A stretch of 64,000 nucleotides of DNA. Source: Solibacteraceae bacterium. Its GTDB lineage: Bacteria > Acidobacteriota > Terriglobia > Bryobacterales > Bryobacteraceae. Positions 31,237-38,157 of this stretch are shown piece after piece. The first letter of the stretch is position 1, and every line of letters begins with the position of its first letter. Under the pieces are notes generated by a model. The model saw nothing but the letters and a program-made list of their open reading frames with translations, searched no databases and was not told the DNA's origin. Location of the stretch: the NCBI GenBank assembly GCA_026984795.1, contig JALSRK010000013.1, forward strand, positions 1-64,000, written 5' to 3'. The translations under genes and the position numbers were made by a program.

Positions 31237-32199
31237 ATGAACCGCCGTCAGTTTCTTCACCGGGCGCCGGCCGCCGGCGCCGCGGCGCTCACCCCGGAGG
31301 CAGCGGGCGCTCCTGGGGCTGCGGGTCACCCGCAAGCCAATGAGACGGAAGTCGTCATCGAGCGCCCACAGCAGGGCCGGCCCCATAAGGGCAAAGTGCT
31401 CGTGGCGATCCAACCCCATGCCGACGACATTTCCCTGTTTGCTTCCGGGACGGTCGCCAAACTGGTACAGGAAGGCTACACCGGGCACTTGATCCGGGTG
31501 ACGAACGACGACATGGCCGGTCCGGGCACCATCGGCGAGACGGTGCTGGCCAATGAAAAGGACAACGACGCCGTGGCCCGCGTGCTCGGCTTGAAGAGGG
31601 TCTTCAACCTGAACTACAACAACCACCGGCTTGACGACATCTCGGTCGTCGAGCTGCGGTCGCGCTTGATCTTCTTGTTCCGCCTGCTCCAGGCGGACAC
31701 CGTGGTCTGCTACGACCCCTGGGGGCACTACGAGGAGAACCCGGACCACTACGTCATGGCCCGGGCCATCGAGTCGGCCTGCTGGATGGCCGGGATGAAC
31801 AAGGACTATCCGGAGCACTTCGCTGCCGGATTGAAACCCAAGAGCGTCCGGGAGCGCTACTATTTCGCCCGGGGGCCTCAACTGGTGAACCGTGTCGTGG
31901 ACATCTCGAAGACTGTCGGGACGAAGATCGACTGCATCGTCGCCAACAAGGCCCAAGGGCCCGGCGGGGACAATGGGGCTCGCCTGCGCCGGCGCCTGGC
32001 CGCGAAGGGCCTGCGGTTGCCTGAGTTGGGCGGCGACGACGAGACGGCCAACCGCGAGTATGTGCGGCTATTCTTGCTGGAGGCGAACCGGGAGCTCGGG
32101 CGCAGATACGGTCTGGAATACGCCGAGGCGTTCCACTACATCGGCCCCAAAGAGTCCCCCGTCGAAGGATACGTGGCCAAGCACGCCGTGCGCCTCTGA
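31237..32199 (+). CDS. Tat-exported PIG-L/LmbE-family deacetylase
   Basis: A 320-residue protein with a twin-arginine signal (MNRRQFLH). The metal motif PHADD (in VAIQPHADDISLFASG) is the PIG-L/LmbE zinc site; members remove N-acetyl groups from GlcNAc-containing molecules. A further conserved stretch is DHYVMARAIESACW. GGAGG sits upstream of the ATG. It is the first of several exported enzymes in this region that could act on amino-sugar derivatives. Substrate cannot be read from the sequence. Confidence 0.87.
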   Translation: MNRRQFLHRAPAAGAAALTPEAAGAPGAAGHPQANETEVVIERPQQGRPHKGKVLVAIQPHADDISLFASGTVAKLVQEGYTGHLIRVTNDDMAGPGTIGETVLANEKDNDAVARVLGLKRVFNLNYNNHRLDDISVVELRSRLIFLFRLLQADTVVCYDPWGHYEENPDHYVMARAIESACWMAGMNKDYPEHFAAGLKPKSVRERYYFARGPQLVNRVVDISKTVGTKIDCIVANKAQGPGGDNGARLRRRLAAKGLRLPELGGDDETANREYVRLFLLEANRELGRRYGLEYAEAFHYIGPKESPVEGYVAKHAVRL

Positions 32200-32220
32200 T
32201 TCGAGCGTTCCAGTTGAGGC

Positions 32221-33333
32221 TCACGAGAGCCGGACGCGGCGGAAGTCGATCTTGCTCTCGTCGCTTTCGCCGAGCCCCAGCAGGCCGGCTATTTCGACGA
32301 ACTCCGGCTGCATCCGCACGAAGAGGCTGTCTTCGTCGTTCGGAGCCAGGGCGATGGGCAACATCCCCATCTCTTCGCGCTTGCGGTCGAGCGCCGTCCA
32401 GCCGACGCGGTCCACCGCCACCGGATCAGTGGCGAAGTAGAGCGTCTTGTGCTCCCAGAGATACTTCCCGGTCTTGCTTCCCGGGCCGCCGTGATAAGCC
32501 CCGAGGATGCCGTCGATGACGTGCAGGACGACTTTCTCGCGGAAGATCCGGTGATCGACCACCGCCGGAATGAAGTAGCCGCAGGCGTTGTTCGAACTGG
32601 AGACATGGCTGCGGGCGACGTTGTTCACCAGCCCGTGAGAGAGATTCTTCAGCGCGATGGTGAAGCCGGCGGACTGATGGTGCTTGAGCACCCCGAGAGT
32701 GACGACCTTGTTGACCTCCTGGGTGAGGAACTTCGCCAGATAGGAGCGCCGGTGGTGCGGGTTCGACGGGTCGCCGCCCTTGGGGATCAGCGCCATTTCG
32801 ACGTACTCATCCGGATCGTAGCGGTCCATGTCGAGCTGGAACTCCCCCACCTCGTCGGTGGCCCAGGTCCAGCGGACGCCCTCGGGCAACCAGCGGTCGA
32901 ATCCCCCACCGAGGAACTGCTTGCGGTAGCGGTCGAAGGCCACGATGTCCCGGCGCGGAATGCCGGCGGCCTCAAGCCCGGCGACGATCTCTTGAAAGAC
33001 CTCCGGGGCGGAAATGATGTAGGGCTGCCCCACCGGATTCACCTTGATCCCGACCACGTCGCCGCGTTCGAAGAAGACGCGCCAGGCTTCCTGCCAGCTC
33101 GGCGCTCCGGTAAGCTCCATCATGCCGCGGCGCATCATCTCGCGGACCGGTTCCCGCTGATACTTACCCTCGATGATCGAGCCTGGATGCTCGACGGCGA
33201 CCACGCGGCCAGGGTACGGTCCGGGGATGCCCAGTTTGCCGGCGCCCGCATCGGCCCGCGCATTTGTTGTGACCCTGCGAAGTAGCGCCGGCGCCATGGC
33301 GGCGCGAAGCAGATCCCGGCGGCCCAGCTTCAT
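32221..33333 (-). CDS. Tat-exported DUF362 family protein
   Basis: A 370-residue protein with a Tat signal (MKLGRRDLLRAAMAPALL). The body has DUF362 features: GDVVGIKVNPVGQP, KVVTLGVLKHHQSAGFTIALKN, and the C-terminal FATDPVAVDRVGW. The catalytic role of DUF362 proteins is not established; some carry FeS clusters, but here no CxxCxxC cluster is visible. The ATG at 33333 has GGAGG six bases upstream and gives the Tat motif at the right place. It converges with the PIG-L gene and is divergent from the lactonase-amidohydrolase fusion. Confidence 0.82.
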   Translation of the reverse strand: MKLGRRDLLRAAMAPALLRRVTTNARADAGAGKLGIPGPYPGRVVAVEHPGSIIEGKYQREPVREMMRRGMMELTGAPSWQEAWRVFFERGDVVGIKVNPVGQPYIISAPEVFQEIVAGLEAAGIPRRDIVAFDRYRKQFLGGGFDRWLPEGVRWTWATDEVGEFQLDMDRYDPDEYVEMALIPKGGDPSNPHHRRSYLAKFLTQEVNKVVTLGVLKHHQSAGFTIALKNLSHGLVNNVARSHVSSSNNACGYFIPAVVDHRIFREKVVLHVIDGILGAYHGGPGSKTGKYLWEHKTLYFATDPVAVDRVGWTALDRKREEMGMLPIALAPNDEDSLFVRMQPEFVEIAGLLGLGESDESKIDFRRVRLS

Positions 33334-33364
33334 ATACCACCTCCGTACGCGATGAATTGCTTCG

Positions 33365-33437
33365 ATTATACCCGGCCCGCCAGCTCGGTTCTTTGGTGAA
33401 AGCATGAGAGAGGAGCGGCCGGCACGTCCGATATAAT
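33365..33437. promoter_or_regulatory. Divergent -10 boxes for the DUF362 and fusion genes
   Basis: TATAAT occurs on the minus strand (33370-33365, toward DUF362) and on the plus strand (33432-33437, toward the fusion gene). Both leave leaders of about 25-35 bases with good ribosome binding sites. Neither has a clear -35 box. Confidence 0.5.
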
Positions 33438-33473
33438 CGGGCCCGAACGGACAAAGACGGAAGGGAGGTTTCC

Positions 33474-35606
33474 ATGAGCCGGCAATGGACGCGAACAGCA
33501 ATCGCCGCGATGCTGCTGGCCCCGCTGGTGAACGCTCAGGGCGAGGAGAAGCTCTTCGTAGCCGAGCCGTTTACCGCCGAGGGCTCCTTCACCGGGCACA
33601 TCGAAGGGCCCGCTTGCGACGCCGAAGGCAACGTCTACGCGGTGAGCTTCGCCCGCCAGCCGACGATCGGCGTGGTGACGCCGGACGGCCGGGCGTCGGT
33701 CTTCGTCGAGCTTACCGGCGGCAGCCTCGCCAACGGCATCCGCTTCGGCCCCGACGGCATGATGTACGTCGCCGACTACACGAACCACAACATCCTGCGC
33801 ATCGATCCGCGCACCCGCCGTATTGAGGTCTTCGCCCACGACGACCGCATGAACCAGCCCAACGATCTGGCCGTCACCCCTGACGGCGCGCTCTACGCCA
33901 GCGACCCGGACTGGAAGGCCGGCACCGGCCAGGTCTGGCGCATCGGCCGCGACGGCGCCTGCACCCGCGTCGCCGAGGGCATGGGGACGACCAACGGGAT
34001 CGAGGTCTCGCCCGACGGGAGCACGCTCTATGTCAACGAGTCTGCGCAGCGCAACGTCTGGGCCTTCACCATCGAGAAAGACGGTTCGCTGTCGAACAAG
34101 CGCCTCGTCATCCGCTTCCCGGACCACGGCATGGACGGCATGCGCTGCGACCTCGACGGCAACCTCTACATCACCCGTTACGGCAAGGGCACAGTAGTGA
34201 AGATCACGCCCAGAGGCGAGGTGATCCGCGAGATCGGCGTGCTGGGGGCGCGGCCGAGCAACCTGGCTTTCGGCGGCCCGGACGGCCGCACCTGCTACGT
34301 CACCGAGGTGGAGCACCGGCGGCTGGTGCGCTTCCGGGTGGACCGCGCCGGGCTGGCCTGGTGGCGCTGGCAGGAGGCGCAGGCCGCCCGGGCGAAATAC
34401 GACCTGGTGCTGAAGGGAGGCCGCCTGATCGACCCGCGCAACGGCATCGACGCCCGCCGCGACATCGCCGTCGCCGGCGGCAAGGTCGCCCTGGTGGCCG
34501 AAGAGATCCCAGCCTCAGAGGCGAAGAAGGCGGTGAACCTCGACGGCCTGATCGTCACGCCCGGCCTCATCGACATCCACGTGCATGTCTATGCCGGCAC
34601 GGGATTGAGGGCCCTCACCGGCGACAACAGCGTCTATCCCGACGGCTTCTCGTTCCGCACCGGCGTGACCACGATGGTGGACGCCGGCACCTCCGGGTGG
34701 CGCAACTTTCCGGACTTCCGCCAGCGGGTGATCGAGCGCGCCAAGACCCGGGTGCTGGCGTTTCTGAATATCTGCGGCGTGGGCATGGCTCCGAAGGGCG
34801 AGAACGACCCGAACGACATGGACGCCGAAGCCGCCGCCGCCATGGCCCGCCGCCACCGGGACATCATCGTCGGATTCAAGGCCGCCCACTACAGCGAGGA
34901 CGACTGGCTCGACATCGACCGCGCCGTGCAGGCGGGCAAGCTGGCGGGCTTGCCGGTGATGGTCGATTTCGGCTACATCGGCCCGCACCGTACCCTGGCC
35001 ACGCTGCTCACCGAGAAGCTGCGGCCCGGCGACATCTACACGCACTGCTACTCCGGCCACCGCCTCGAGCTGCTGCCCAATGGCAAACTGAATCCGGCGA
35101 TGTTCGCCGGCCGCCGCCGCGGGGTGCTCTTCGACCTCGGCCACGGCGGGGGCAGCTTCTACTGGAAGGTGGCCGTGCCGGCCTTCGAACAGGGATTCCC
35201 GCCGGACACGATCTCGACGGACCTGCACACCGGCAGCATGAACGCCGGCATGAAGGACCTGCCGAACGTGATGTCGAAGGTCCTGAACCTGGGCGTGCCG
35301 CTCGCCCGCGTCATCGAGATGACCACCTGGGCGGCGGCCCGAACCATCCACCGGCAAGAGCTGGGCCACTTGAGCCCGGGCGCGGTGGCCGACATCACCG
35401 TGCTGCGCCTGGAGGAGGGCCGCTTCGGCTTCCTCGACGCCGCCGGCGCCCGCAACACGGGCAAGAAGCGGCTGGGGGTGGAGATGACGATCCGAGCCGG
35501 TAAAGTGGTCTGGGACCTCAACGGGCGCGCCGGCCTGGACTGGCGGTCCTTCCCTTACAAGCCGCGCCGGCCGCCGCAGCGCAAGCGCACCGCCGGTGGG
35601 CCCTGA
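33474..35606 (+). CDS. Secreted lactonase (SMP-30) - amidohydrolase fusion
   Basis: A 710-residue protein with a Sec signal ending near LVNAQG. Residues 25-300 form an SMP-30/gluconolactonase-type propeller with its metal set intact: Glu44 (HIEGP), Asn130 (NQPND), Asn174 (TTNG) and Asp221 (GMDGM). From residue 308 an amidohydrolase domain of the dihydroorotase/EF_0837-AHA_3915 style follows: DIHVH (His369, His371), a candidate carboxylated Lys in GFKAAHY, YTHCYSGH and the STDLHTG Asp. So one chain could open an aldonolactone and cleave an amide. EF_0837-type amidohydrolases usually neighbour SelA-like PLP enzymes, as here. Confidence 0.88.
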   Translation: MSRQWTRTAIAAMLLAPLVNAQGEEKLFVAEPFTAEGSFTGHIEGPACDAEGNVYAVSFARQPTIGVVTPDGRASVFVELTGGSLANGIRFGPDGMMYVADYTNHNILRIDPRTRRIEVFAHDDRMNQPNDLAVTPDGALYASDPDWKAGTGQVWRIGRDGACTRVAEGMGTTNGIEVSPDGSTLYVNESAQRNVWAFTIEKDGSLSNKRLVIRFPDHGMDGMRCDLDGNLYITRYGKGTVVKITPRGEVIREIGVLGARPSNLAFGGPDGRTCYVTEVEHRRLVRFRVDRAGLAWWRWQEAQAARAKYDLVLKGGRLIDPRNGIDARRDIAVAGGKVALVAEEIPASEAKKAVNLDGLIVTPGLIDIHVHVYAGTGLRALTGDNSVYPDGFSFRTGVTTMVDAGTSGWRNFPDFRQRVIERAKTRVLAFLNICGVGMAPKGENDPNDMDAEAAAAMARRHRDIIVGFKAAHYSEDDWLDIDRAVQAGKLAGLPVMVDFGYIGPHRTLATLLTEKLRPGDIYTHCYSGHRLELLPNGKLNPAMFAGRRRGVLFDLGHGGGSFYWKVAVPAFEQGFPPDTISTDLHTGSMNAGMKDLPNVMSKVLNLGVPLARVIEMTTWAAARTIHRQELGHLSPGAVADITVLRLEEGRFGFLDAAGARNTGKKRLGVEMTIRAGKVVWDLNGRAGLDWRSFPYKPRRPPQRKRTAGGP

Positions 35607-35639
35607 CGCGCCGCCTGCGCGGCCGCCGCAACGCCGGGC

Positions 35640-36824
35640 CTATGCCGCTCCCAGCGCCTCGCCCACGCGGCGGGCGACGATCTCCGCCTCGCCCGGCATG
35701 AGCATCCACGGGTTGACGATCAGGTGGTCTTTCGAGCCCGGGGTCACCCGGATGGACGGCTCGCCGTCTTCGAGTTCCTTCACCACTTGCGGCACCGTCT
35801 TGCCCACCTGGCGTTCGTCCCACCAAATGTGCACGTGGGGCACGTGGTTGGCGATCTCGGGTACCACGATCTCTGTCTTCACCGTCGGAACCGAAGAAAC
35901 GGCATCGACGATCAGTCGCGCCCGGCGATCCAGCTCCCGCCGCTCCTCCGCGTCGTCCTGAGCCAGGTAGATTTCCAGCGCCACCATCATGCCGAGCATC
36001 TCTTCCTTGTTGACCTTCATTCCCCGGCCGATCGTATCGCCGTGAGGAGACGTGTTCAATCGCGCCGCGGCGATCAGATCCTTGCGCCCGAGCAGCAGGC
36101 CGGCGCTCTGCGGTCCGCGGATGCCCTTGCCGCCCGAGAAGGTCACCAGGTCGAAGCCCATGCGCGTGTAGGCCGTCAGGTTCGCGCGCGGCGGTACGTC
36201 GGCGGCGGCGTCGGTGAAGGTGGGAACTCCGTATTTCTTGCCGATTTCCACGAATTCTTCGCGGTGGACCTTTCCTCTAGGGTCGGCCGTGTTCAGGAAG
36301 AACATCATCGCCGTCTGGTCGTTGATCGCGTTCTCGATCTCCTCGCGGGTCTCCACCTCGATCAGCTTGATGCCGCAGTCGCGAATCGCGTGATCGTAGC
36401 CGAAGCGGTGCGACTTCTGAATGATCACCTCGTTCTTCATGCCCGTGGTGTCGGGCAGGCGCCTGATCTTCTCCGGATCGGTGCCGGTCAAGCAGGCGGC
36501 GGTGCCGAGGGTCAGCGCCGAAGCCGCCCCGGCGGTGACCATCGCCGCCTCGCAGCCGAGCAGCTCCGCAATCCGCTTGCCGACGGCGTCGTGAAGCTCA
36601 TCCAACACCACGTACTGGCGTGACGCGTAGAGGATGGCGTCCATCACCTCGGGGGGCATCAGCGACGCCGTCAGAGCAGTATAAGTGCCGGCCGCGTTGA
36701 GGAACGGCCGGACCCCCAGTTCACGGAAATAATCGCGCCCGGTGCGCCGGCCGCAGCCCGTCACGCCAACGCCGGCCAAGGGCGCGGCGCCCAACGCTCC
36801 GAGAAATCCTCGCCGGTTCAACAT
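35640..36824 (-). CDS. Tat-exported SelA-like PLP-dependent enzyme
   Basis: A 394-residue protein of the SelA-like fold-type I PLP family that includes D-glucosaminate-6-phosphate ammonia-lyase (DgaE). The PLP Lys is K233 in FSGGKGIRGPQS, with the preceding FTDAAADVPP aspartate region. It starts MLNRRGFLGALGAAP, a Tat motif, and VTGC at residues 21-24 is a possible lipobox. Tat export of a folded, cofactor-loaded enzyme would make sense for PLP. It is not a selenocysteine synthase in this setting, as no sel genes are present. AAGGAGG lies before ATG 36824. It converges with the lactonase-amidohydrolase gene. Confidence 0.85.
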   Translation of the reverse strand: MLNRRGFLGALGAAPLAGVGVTGCGRRTGRDYFRELGVRPFLNAAGTYTALTASLMPPEVMDAILYASRQYVVLDELHDAVGKRIAELLGCEAAMVTAGAASALTLGTAACLTGTDPEKIRRLPDTTGMKNEVIIQKSHRFGYDHAIRDCGIKLIEVETREEIENAINDQTAMMFFLNTADPRGKVHREEFVEIGKKYGVPTFTDAAADVPPRANLTAYTRMGFDLVTFSGGKGIRGPQSAGLLLGRKDLIAAARLNTSPHGDTIGRGMKVNKEEMLGMMVALEIYLAQDDAEERRELDRRARLIVDAVSSVPTVKTEIVVPEIANHVPHVHIWWDERQVGKTVPQVVKELEDGEPSIRVTPGSKDHLIVNPWMLMPGEAEIVARRVGEALGAA

Positions 36825-37012
36825 GGTAACGATGACCTCCTTTGCGGTTTTGATCTTGACGCTTCCGGCGGCCGGAGTCAAGCGGGGTTGCCCGCCGGGG
36901 GATTCCACGTGGACATCCCTGTGCGGCCCCTCTCGCTGCTTTCCGGCCGTCCGGCCGCTCCCGGCGGGGCCTTCGGCAATGCGGGCGCACCCGTGGTCCG
37001 GGTATTCCGAGC

Positions 37013-37041
37013 TTGACCGGGCGCACCATGCGTCTTAACAA
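37013..37041 (+). promoter_or_regulatory. Possible promoter for the 37072 frame
   Basis: TTGACC (37013-37018) and TAACAA (37036-37041) are 17 bases apart. The -35 box is good, the -10 box weak. The start codon at 37072 is 30 bases further on. Confidence 0.35.
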
Positions 37042-37071
37042 AGAATTCAAGAGCGAAAAATACCCGGATCG

Positions 37072-37713
37072 ATGCGGCAACGAGATGAGAGATCATGGGC
37101 CGCTACGGCCCTTGCGGGCGCACTCCTGGCTCTCGCGCTGCCGCATAGTGCGGCGTTCGTCGGAAAAACGCCGGTTCAAGTGTGCTGGAGCGGCCTGGGA
37201 CCGCTGGTCGAAGGGCGGTCGGTGAAACTGACGCTCGCCGGCGGGACGCGCATCCGGGGCCGTGTAATTGCGGTTCACCGGGAGGCGCTCGAGATCGCCG
37301 TGAAGAAGACTTCGGCTCGGACGGCGGCTCCGAAGGGCCGCCGGGAGATTCCGCGGAGCCAGGTGAAATCGATCTCCGTGCGCAAGAAGCGAAGCGTTCT
37401 GGGGCGGGCGATCTTGACGCCGTTGCTCGGGCTGGCGGGGGCCGCCGGCGCCGCCGGCCTCATCTCCTGGGAGGTGCTCCTGGCGGGTTCGAGCGACGGG
37501 GCTCAGTGGGCGTTCGTTCTGGGCGTCGCTGCCGGCGCGGCAACGCTCGGATATCGCCTCGGCTCGCGCCTGGACCACAAGTGGGTCGAGATCCTTCTGC
37601 TGCCGGAGGCCGGGCCTTCCTGCCGGGGAGTGCCGCCCGGGCCGCCCCCCGCAGCGATCCCGGGCGCGGGCGAAACCAAAGATGGTAGACTCGACTCCAC
37701 GGGAGGTGAAGGT
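37072..37713 (+). CDS. Secreted protein of unknown function, frame open into ridA
   Basis: The frame from ATG 37072 begins with a signal-peptide-like MRQRDERSWAATALAGALLA and a small beta-rich domain (VKLTLAGGTRIRGRVIAVHR, EIPRSQVKSISVRKK), followed by one or two hydrophobic glycine/alanine segments. I recognise the LAGGTRIRGRV...IPRSQV pattern from uncharacterised acidobacterial envelope proteins. The frame has no stop before ridA: translation would continue through residue 214 into RidA, giving a 361-residue fusion. Either a real fusion, an internal start at 37714, or a lost stop or sequence error explains this. I mark the end at the base before the ridA start. Confidence 0.5.
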
Positions 37714-38157
37714 ATGGCAAACGACCGCAGAACGATGCTGAAGACGGCCGCCGCCGCGCTGGCCGGCGTGGGCGCCGCCCAAGCGGCCGGCAAGGAAGAG
37801 AAAAAAGTTCACGGACTGCCGGAAAACCCCGAAAAGACACCGCTGTTCTCGCCGGTGGTCACTTTCGGCCGGCTGGTGTTCCTCTCCGGCATCGGGGCCC
37901 ACTTTCCCGGCGACATCAAGGCCCACACCAACCACGTCCTCGACGAGATCGAGAAGCGTTTGAAGATGGCGGGCTCCTCGATGGACAAAGTCCTCAAGGT
38001 CAGTGTCTTCCTGAACGACATCAAGGACTACGACGCCATGAACGAGGTCTACCGGGGCCGCTTCGGCAAGCAGCCGCCGGTGAGGACCACGGTGGCGCCG
38101 GCCGGCGGGATCCCGGGCAAGTCGCTCGTCGAGATCGACGTGATCGCTTACGTGTGA
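37714..38157 (+). CDS. ridA: Tat-signal RidA-family imine deaminase
   Basis: A 147-residue protein whose first part MANDRRTMLKTAAAALAGVG is a Tat signal ending near AQA. The body is RidA: PVVTFGRLVFLSGIG, VSVFLNDIKDYDAMNEVY, and the key Arg124 (PVRTTV) with Glu140, so the imine-hydrolysing site is intact. RidA normally clears reactive enamines made by PLP lyases in the cytoplasm; export is unusual. GGAGGTGAA sits six bases before ATG 37714 and TAGACT (37686-37691) is a plausible -10 box, which support an independent start despite the open frame upstream. Confidence 0.85.
   Translation: MANDRRTMLKTAAAALAGVGAAQAAGKEEKKVHGLPENPEKTPLFSPVVTFGRLVFLSGIGAHFPGDIKAHTNHVLDEIEKRLKMAGSSMDKVLKVSVFLNDIKDYDAMNEVYRGRFGKQPPVRTTVAPAGGIPGKSLVEIDVIAYV

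Follow-up and report, generated by a model that had tools for sequence, protein, structure and literature searches.

Five genes that lie between positions 31237 and 38157 of a 64,000-nucleotide stretch of Solibacteraceae bacterium DNA (contig JALSRK010000013.1; the whole stretch is hereafter called the window) raise the question of whether a set of enzymes for amino-sugar acids can operate together outside the cytoplasm. An initial annotation, prepared from the sequence alone, described these genes as encoding a PIG-L deacetylase, a DUF362 protein, a lactonase-amidohydrolase fusion, a SelA-like pyridoxal phosphate (PLP) enzyme, and a RidA protein, and proposed that they form an exported route for N-acyl amino-aldonolactones. 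Pfam and NCBIfam searches bore out all five family assignments, and the genes indeed lie on both strands. We lean slightly toward the view that the products of this cluster process N-acylated 2-amino-aldonic acids in a pathway located outside the cytoplasm, either in the periplasm or at the surface, a view that draws on gene content, export motifs, co-conservation, residue differences, and the match of the DUF362 fold. The set is real and its core is conserved, and it is probably an extracytoplasmic amino-sugar-acid pathway; membership of PIG-L is doubtful.

Co-conservation was evaluated by searching 120 genomes of the order Bryobacterales with each protein and comparing the coordinates of the matches; the source genome was excluded from the pair counts, leaving 119 others. 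The counts are lower bounds (three rows matching the SGL half of the fusion alone were omitted, and weaker RidA, PIG-L, and DUF362 rows were dropped by score), and the expected values assume 6-Mb genomes with uniform placement. Because related genomes are not independent, genera are given beside the counts. The SelA-like gene lay within 5 kb of the amidohydrolase at least 13 times (0.75 expected), of RidA at least 18 times (0.40 expected), and of DUF362 at least 11 times (0.51 expected). Within the same distance, the amidohydrolase was paired with DUF362 at least 11 times (0.48 expected) and with RidA at least 9 times (0.36 expected), while DUF362 and RidA, the commonest pair among the matches listed, were found together at least 29 times (0.30 expected). 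These core pairs exceed chance by at least 17- to 97-fold, and each occurs in 5–10 genera among the matches listed. The SelA-like, amidohydrolase, RidA, and DUF362 families are linked beyond chance; in one genome (G010), DUF362, RidA, SelA, and the amidohydrolase follow one another within ~4 kb. Association of RraA with the core in the order is weak, with three pairs each for the amidohydrolase, DUF362, and RidA among the 39 best rows.

Does the linkage extend beyond the order? A SelA profile search yielded 494 confirmed stretches, of which the best 80 were kept and 78 used; our script called no SelA gene in the other two (L197 and L236). Loci were grouped by record title, and some labels of metagenome-assembled genomes (MAGs) are doubtful (for example, L193 is labelled Arcobacter). 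Genes were called by a simple script and neighbors were identified by BLAST against a small number of references, an approach that can overlook PIG-L or lactonase genes of distant sequence. SelA-like relatives are present in records labelled Bacteroidota, Planctomycetota, and Verrucomicrobia, mostly MAGs but with some isolates, Maribacter algarum and Saonia flava among them. Within 6 kb of SelA in 22 Bacteroidota loci, we found the amidohydrolase in 20, RidA in 18, a glucose/sorbosone dehydrogenase (GSDH) in 13, RraA in 11, an SBF transporter in 6, a TRAP transporter in 3, and SGL in 2. The amidohydrolase, RidA, and SelA-like genes form a single same-strand run in 16 of the 22. Two loci, from Saprospiraceae (L221) and Lewinella (L226), contain the order SMP-30, amidohydrolase, RidA, SelA in which the first two genes are unfused and the SMP-30 protein is 54–58% identical to that of the window; the window fusion thus joins operon partners. 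Flavobacterial operons also include genes for TRAP or SBF transporters, an RraA-type protein that looks exported, a second Rid-family member that is lipoprotein-like, and, with cytochrome c, a glucose/sorbosone dehydrogenase.

Related rows were found elsewhere. On a plasmid of Granulicella tundricola MP5ACTX9, the order is RraA, SelA, RidA, second PLP protein, amidohydrolase, lactonase, and BBE-domain protein, the last of which we take to be a sugar oxidase; nearly all have RR- or Sec-like starts, the BBE protein being without one. A Klebsiella row comprises amidohydrolase, DgaE, KDGP aldolase, and lactonase. The first three have no signal sequence, and the start of the lactonase is signal-like. 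Two Haladaptatus clusters combine PIG-L, SelA-like, glucose dehydrogenase, and Rid genes, and Halomontanus carries PIG-L, D-aminoacylase, and SelA-like genes together. The four-gene operon in two loci of another phylum and the three-gene run in most Bacteroidota loci support the initial idea of a single exported pathway; they do not support five genes as one conserved neighborhood.

The extracytoplasmic location is predicted from N-terminal motifs, on which our assignments to the twin-arginine translocation (Tat) system rest. The PIG-L, DUF362, SelA-like, and RidA proteins begin with RR-type motifs, and the fusion has a Sec-type N-terminus. The twin arginine is invariant in all 16 rows of the SelA-like alignment. 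Among 132 distinct SelA-like homologues, window included, RR is found in 123 (120 as RRx-hydrophobic and 3 in other RR contexts); the remaining nine comprise eight short or truncated sequences and one lacking the motif, its gene starting at contig base 1. RR or KR precedes a hydrophobic stretch in 48 of 57 RidA homologues, RR is present in 28 of 31 DUF362 homologues, and a simple scan detected a hydrophobic N-terminus ahead of the domain in 51 of 58 amidohydrolases other than that of the window, some of the other seven being truncated or misread by the scan. The Tat- and Sec-type signals initially annotated are therefore upheld as motifs that are conserved in relatives. The possible lipobox of the SelA-like enzyme (VTGC) was rejected as a general feature, as Cys occupies this position in 2 of 16 aligned rows.

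The SelA-like enzyme (positions 35640–36824, minus strand; 394 amino acids; PF03841, 49.3 bits) has a Tat-type signal that includes the lipobox-like VTGC. Its start at 36824 (MLNRRGFLG), like that of DUF362 at 33333 (MKLGRRDLL), was refined by eye, and both proteins are shorter than the longest open frame. The best solved relative is Salmonella DgaE (7lc0; E 1.6e-53), and the PLP lysine (K213 of the 7lc0 chain, 217 in the paper, Lys233 in the window) is kept in 132 of 132 homologues. The proton donor of DgaE, His163, is kept in 1 of 132, and the phosphate arginines Arg301 and Arg332 in 4 and 16, respectively, with none having both. At the positions of the His pair and phosphate arginines, the window enzyme has A180/D181 and H330/T361; position 346 is a gap or Trp depending on the alignment. 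The His pair is kept in Salmonella DgaE, Klebsiella DgaE, and an Ensifer homologue and is absent from three haloarchaeal proteins and the exported SelA-likes compared. Scores fall below the cut-offs of the NCBIfam DgaE models (TIGR01437, 195.7 of 385.3; NF047797, 170 of 600), and with the phosphate site and His163 absent, we rejected assignment as a true DgaE; assignment as a tRNA selenium transferase was rejected as well (TIGR00474, 49.8 of 267.9 bits).

These residue differences suggest a mechanism. The DgaE study reports that the H163A enzyme releases free enamine and names RidA as the enzyme class that breaks down such enamines (PMC9529869). From the absence of the phosphate arginines and of His163, we infer that the substrate of the exported lyases is not phosphorylated and that these enzymes depend on RidA. 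A Rid gene adjoins the Haladaptatus SelA-likes, one of which is shown to lack His163, and this arrangement fits such reliance. In a midpoint-rooted FastTree phylogeny, displayed with no support values, most exported SelA-likes lie apart from DgaE and the haloarchaeal proteins; a second exported-looking group, including the second Granulicella PLP protein, groups with rhizobial proteins. SelA-likes of Sinorhizobium and Rhizobium plasmids (L256 and L258) adjoin aepX phosphonate genes. In two related genera, inspection by eye placed a SelA-like gene beside a uronate-isomerase-like gene (L046, L048, L053–L056, L062, and L063), often with a second PIG-L-like and a GH42-like gene, which suggests a related sugar-acid setting. 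Other SelA-like genes lie near a conserved row that by eye resembles MoxR, DUF58, and von Willebrand-type membrane proteins (L040, L045, L051, L058–L061, L064–L066, and L072) and has no evident catabolic link.

The fusion (positions 33474–35606, plus strand; 710 amino acids) combines an SMP-30/gluconolactonase domain (approximately residues 44–278; SGL, PF08450, 155.4 bits) with an amidohydrolase/deacetylase domain (approximately residues 308–681). Solved lactonases are nearest to the SMP-30 half, with gluconolactonase 8djf the best match, and aldonolactone hydrolysis is predicted. The amidohydrolase half scores above the NF006689 cut-off (426.5 vs 371). Enzymes of this type bind metal through the scheme HxH-K-H-H-D. 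All 58 close homologues, counting that of the window, have Asp at the metal position on beta5 (Asp498 in the window), as does the Granulicella protein, compared with His in all five relatives examined (Klebsiella, Mesorhizobium, Thermomicrobium, 2ogj, and 2ics). The five remaining ligands are conserved throughout. By this Asp, the exported amidohydrolases are a distinct subfamily. Fusion to SGL was rejected as a family trait, because none of 29 close amidohydrolase loci showed a fused SGL (L092, among these, has too little upstream sequence to judge). A literature search on COG3964-type amidohydrolases yielded nothing of use. Tandem arrays of five amidohydrolases of this family occur in three genomes (G021 contig 1, locus L164; G023; G025).

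RidA, of the Rid enamine/imine deaminase family (positions 37714–38157, plus strand; 147 amino acids; PF01042, 73.6 bits), has a Tat-type signal (MANDRRTMLK...AQAAG). An Arg near the C-terminus of RidA proteins functions in substrate binding, and the corresponding Arg of the window protein is aligned (PVRTTV/PARVAV). Its start at 37714 (MANDRRTMLK) follows ggaggtgaaggt, and the surrounding frame is open from 37072. The 214 codons thus formed (37072–37713) begin with a signal-like start and run into RidA with no stop. Their GC content by codon position (0.72/0.59/0.77, vs 0.63/0.41/0.88 in RidA) is not typical of coding sequence here and gives a weak coding signature, and a Pfam scan of the full frame (37072–38157) matched the RidA part and no family upstream.

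The PIG-L protein (positions 31237–32199, plus strand; 320 amino acids; PF02585, 66.3 bits) starts with the RR-type signal MNRRQFLHR. Its PHADD and NPDH motifs align with PHPDD and HPDH of 3wl4 (H-x-D-D plus a distal His), which is its best solved match and is labelled uncharacterised; the second and third matches are diacetylchitobiose deacetylases.

DUF362 (positions 32221–33333, minus strand; 370 amino acids; PF04015, 58.8 bits; RR-type signal MKLGRRDLL) was analyzed by structural modeling, which gave a model of moderate quality (pLDDT 65.9, pTM 0.73). Its ten best structural matches have Z scores of 9.1–11.7, and the next has 5.6. Nine of these carry LarA-type names; the other, 4nar, is an unnamed Thermotoga protein. 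Superposition on the LarA-type structures gives root-mean-square deviations of 3.4–4.5 over 170–224 residues, with Foldseek TM-scores of only 0.33–0.39 for the same entries. The model thus resembles the LarA fold, and DUF362 and LarA are placed in the same Pfam clan, CL0471 (PMC11770544). His219, Lys229, and His243 are invariant in 31 of 31 DUF362 homologues. Two LarA reports identify His174, Lys184, and His200 as cofactor-site residues (PMC12611868, PMC9283937); the resemblance of H219-x9-K229-x13-H243 to H174-x9-K184-x15-H200 is one of spacing only, and the model has pLDDT <50 in this region. LarC was also weighed as an argument for a nickel cofactor in DUF362 and rejected: it is found in 116 of 120 genomes, including the source genome and genomes with no DUF362 match, and being nearly universal it does not discriminate for a nickel-pincer cofactor. 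DUF362 is therefore likened to the LarA superfamily of nickel-pincer 2-hydroxyacid racemases and epimerases by fold and Pfam clan; it differs in its Tat-type signal, in its low TM-scores, and in that its profile had no sequence match among solved chains. A second DUF362 subgroup (33–36% identical, RR start) adjoins RidA in many genomes (L156, L157, L158, L160, and L171), and these loci also hold a secreted-looking protein of ~263–310 amino acids.

In the proposed route, for which the substrate, step order, each reaction, and subcellular site are all predicted, an amino-aldonolactone or its N-acyl form would come from the action of an exported sugar oxidoreductase or from oxidative cleavage of chitin, and the SMP-30 domain would open the lactone. 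The fused amidohydrolase would then strip the acyl group; PIG-L may deacetylate the sugar or oligomer upstream. The exported SelA-like enzyme would eliminate the C3 hydroxyl of the non-phosphorylated substrate and, having no counterpart of His163, would release an enamine that RidA could hydrolyze to a 2-keto-3-deoxy acid and ammonia. This product might pass to an exported RraA-type aldolase/decarboxylase or to an acid transporter, and DUF362 may be a LarA-type epimerase or racemase of hydroxy acids. The source genome contains six RraA-family copies, three of which look exported, one pyrroloquinoline quinone (PQQ) dehydrogenase, and five GH20 matches. These unlinked genes make a complete route possible without showing it.

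Several observations weigh against this pathway reading. No gene for a transporter, kinase, or aldolase lies in the cluster. In the source genome, no GSDH is found, and its PQQ dehydrogenase and RraA copies are unlinked to the cluster; RraA-SelA pairs number 0 among the 39 best rows in the order. All five genes together occur in no other of the 119 genomes among the matches listed. The closest SelA-like homologues (L038–L045, 63–72% identical) have no partner nearby, and the 40 loci of the nearest SelA homologues hold RidA in 13, DUF362 in 5, and a strong amidohydrolase match in 2. Among 52 acidobacterial or other loci, the amidohydrolase lies within 6 kb of SelA in 3, DUF362 in 6, and RidA in 14. 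RidA is missing from the vicinity of SelA at many acidobacterial loci, and the gene tables of haloarchaeal loci L260, L261, and L269, which are incomplete, list no Rid gene; neither observation fits reliance on RidA. DUF362 is absent from all 22 Bacteroidota loci. The beta5 Asp may alter the amidohydrolase reaction, and the signal-like start of the Klebsiella lactonase means that its operon provides no clean all-cytoplasmic parallel. The original proposal largely holds as a type of pathway, with core pairs that recur in Bryobacterales relatives, and is not supported as a unit of five genes, a set that does not recur among the matches listed.

What else could account for the locus? If common Tat-exported Bryobacterales enzymes had gathered by chance, five genes without functional link might be expected to lie on both strands and to form a set found only here among the matches listed, as they do; a scan that missed DUF362 and RidA also marked loose Tat-like motifs in 6 of the 50 window genes, including two cluster genes. 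Core pairs at least 17- to 97-fold over expectation and operons that cross phyla make this explanation highly improbable. Whether PIG-L belongs is a closer question, and we see an even chance that the amidohydrolase, SelA-like enzyme, RidA, and DUF362 alone constitute the system, with PIG-L an unrelated exported deacetylase that adjoins them by chance. PIG-L pairs are few among the matches listed (at least 5 with SelA, at least 2 with the amidohydrolase, at least 2 with DUF362, and 0 with RidA), the source genome has seven matches to the family, and BLAST comparison with a small reference set identified PIG-L at none of the 22 Bacteroidota loci. Regular membership in the pathway, as first annotated, is not borne out. 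On the other hand, two genomes of one genus (G076 and G095) place PIG-L in the single-strand row amidohydrolase-x-DUF362-PIG-L-SelA, and PIG-L accompanies SelA-like genes in the Haladaptatus and Halomontanus clusters described above.

A different substrate must also be considered. The exported amidohydrolase-SelA-RidA unit might act on other N-acyl beta-hydroxy-alpha-amino acids, such as D-serine and D-threonine types derived from peptides or the cell wall, to yield simple keto acids, the sugar-handling neighbors being incidental. The unrelated enzyme OngC, of fold type III, deaminates D-serine and D-threonine as well (PMC9537276), the rhizobial SelA-likes beside aepX indicate a broad family, and lactonases near SelA are few (one SGL and one seven-bladed lactonase in the 52 acidobacterial or other loci). 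Yet lactonases recur with the amidohydrolase-SelA unit in the window, L221, L226, Granulicella, and Klebsiella, sugar oxidoreductases are found in 13 of 22 Bacteroidota loci, and DgaE is the best solved relative of the lyase; we consider this substrate class unlikely.

RidA and PLP lyases are usually seen as cytoplasmic chemistry, in which RidA shields PLP enzymes from enamines. A conserved exported pair would show that such chemistry takes place in the envelope as well, and would suggest that RidA is a dedicated partner for a lyase that has lost its proton donor. The pathway would also offer functions that can be tested for three exported families whose definition is poor (SelA-like class V proteins, Asp-type amidohydrolases, and DUF362) and indicate a way in which bacteria of soils and the sea may exploit oxidised chitin or other amino-sugar acids. 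It is tempting to speculate, and here we are more tentative, that a module common to Acidobacteriota, Bacteroidota, and Planctomycetota (the last represented by one MAG contig, L222) is complete outside the cytoplasm, with a Tat-exported enamine-releasing PLP lyase, a Tat-exported RidA, and an amidohydrolase whose metal site has been rebuilt, joined in Acidobacteriota by a Tat-exported and cofactor-loaded LarA-like epimerase, DUF362. With such a module, PLP and Rid chemistry would be a regular part of envelope metabolism, and a toxic intermediate would be kept from cytoplasmic PLP enzymes.

The initial annotation knew of no exported version of such a route, and we found none described in the open-licence literature searched. 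Three known pathways are close. The Dga system (DgaABCDEF) has a homologous SelA-type PLP lyase, to which Klebsiella adds a homologous amidohydrolase and lactonase in one row. Its substrate is imported and phosphorylated by the phosphotransferase system (PMC9529869). DgaE differs from the exported enzymes in having His162/His163 and three phosphate arginines; the Dga lyase and amidohydrolase lack signal sequences, and no RidA is among the genes listed around Klebsiella DgaE.

In the oxidative chitin pathway of Pseudoalteromonas (OngB, OngC, OngD, and KdgK), OngB deacetylates N-acetylglucosaminate (GlcNAc1A), OngC deaminates glucosaminate (GlcN1A) to 2-keto-3-deoxygluconate, and OngD is a RidA protein that is needed for growth and whose role is not established (PMC9537276). 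OngB and OngC are predicted by the authors to be cytoplasmic (PMC9537276). The order of amidohydrolase, PLP deaminase, RidA, and keto-deoxy acid, acting on non-phosphorylated GlcNAc1A and GlcN1A, is the same as that proposed here. Judged from the paper's description, OngB is of the D-aminoacylase type and OngC is a fold-type III enzyme, so that neither is likely to be orthologous to its exported counterpart.

The third system is haloarchaeal and includes CE14, which we take to be the PIG-L family, and RutC, presumably a RidA-family protein. In the predicted chitin route of Natrarchaeobius, CE14, a glucose dehydrogenase (GDH), DGA (a DgaE homologue), and RutC occur together (PMC12343721), a combination of deacetylase, sugar dehydrogenase, DgaE-like lyase, and RutC that resembles the exported sets. 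Unlike the exported enzymes, the SelA-like proteins that related haloarchaea carry lack a signal sequence, and the authors of the route propose a phosphorylated intermediate and call RutC a repressor (PMC12343721). Set beside these systems, the cluster looks like a counterpart, placed outside the cytoplasm, to the Dga and Ong routes, which are cytoplasmic.

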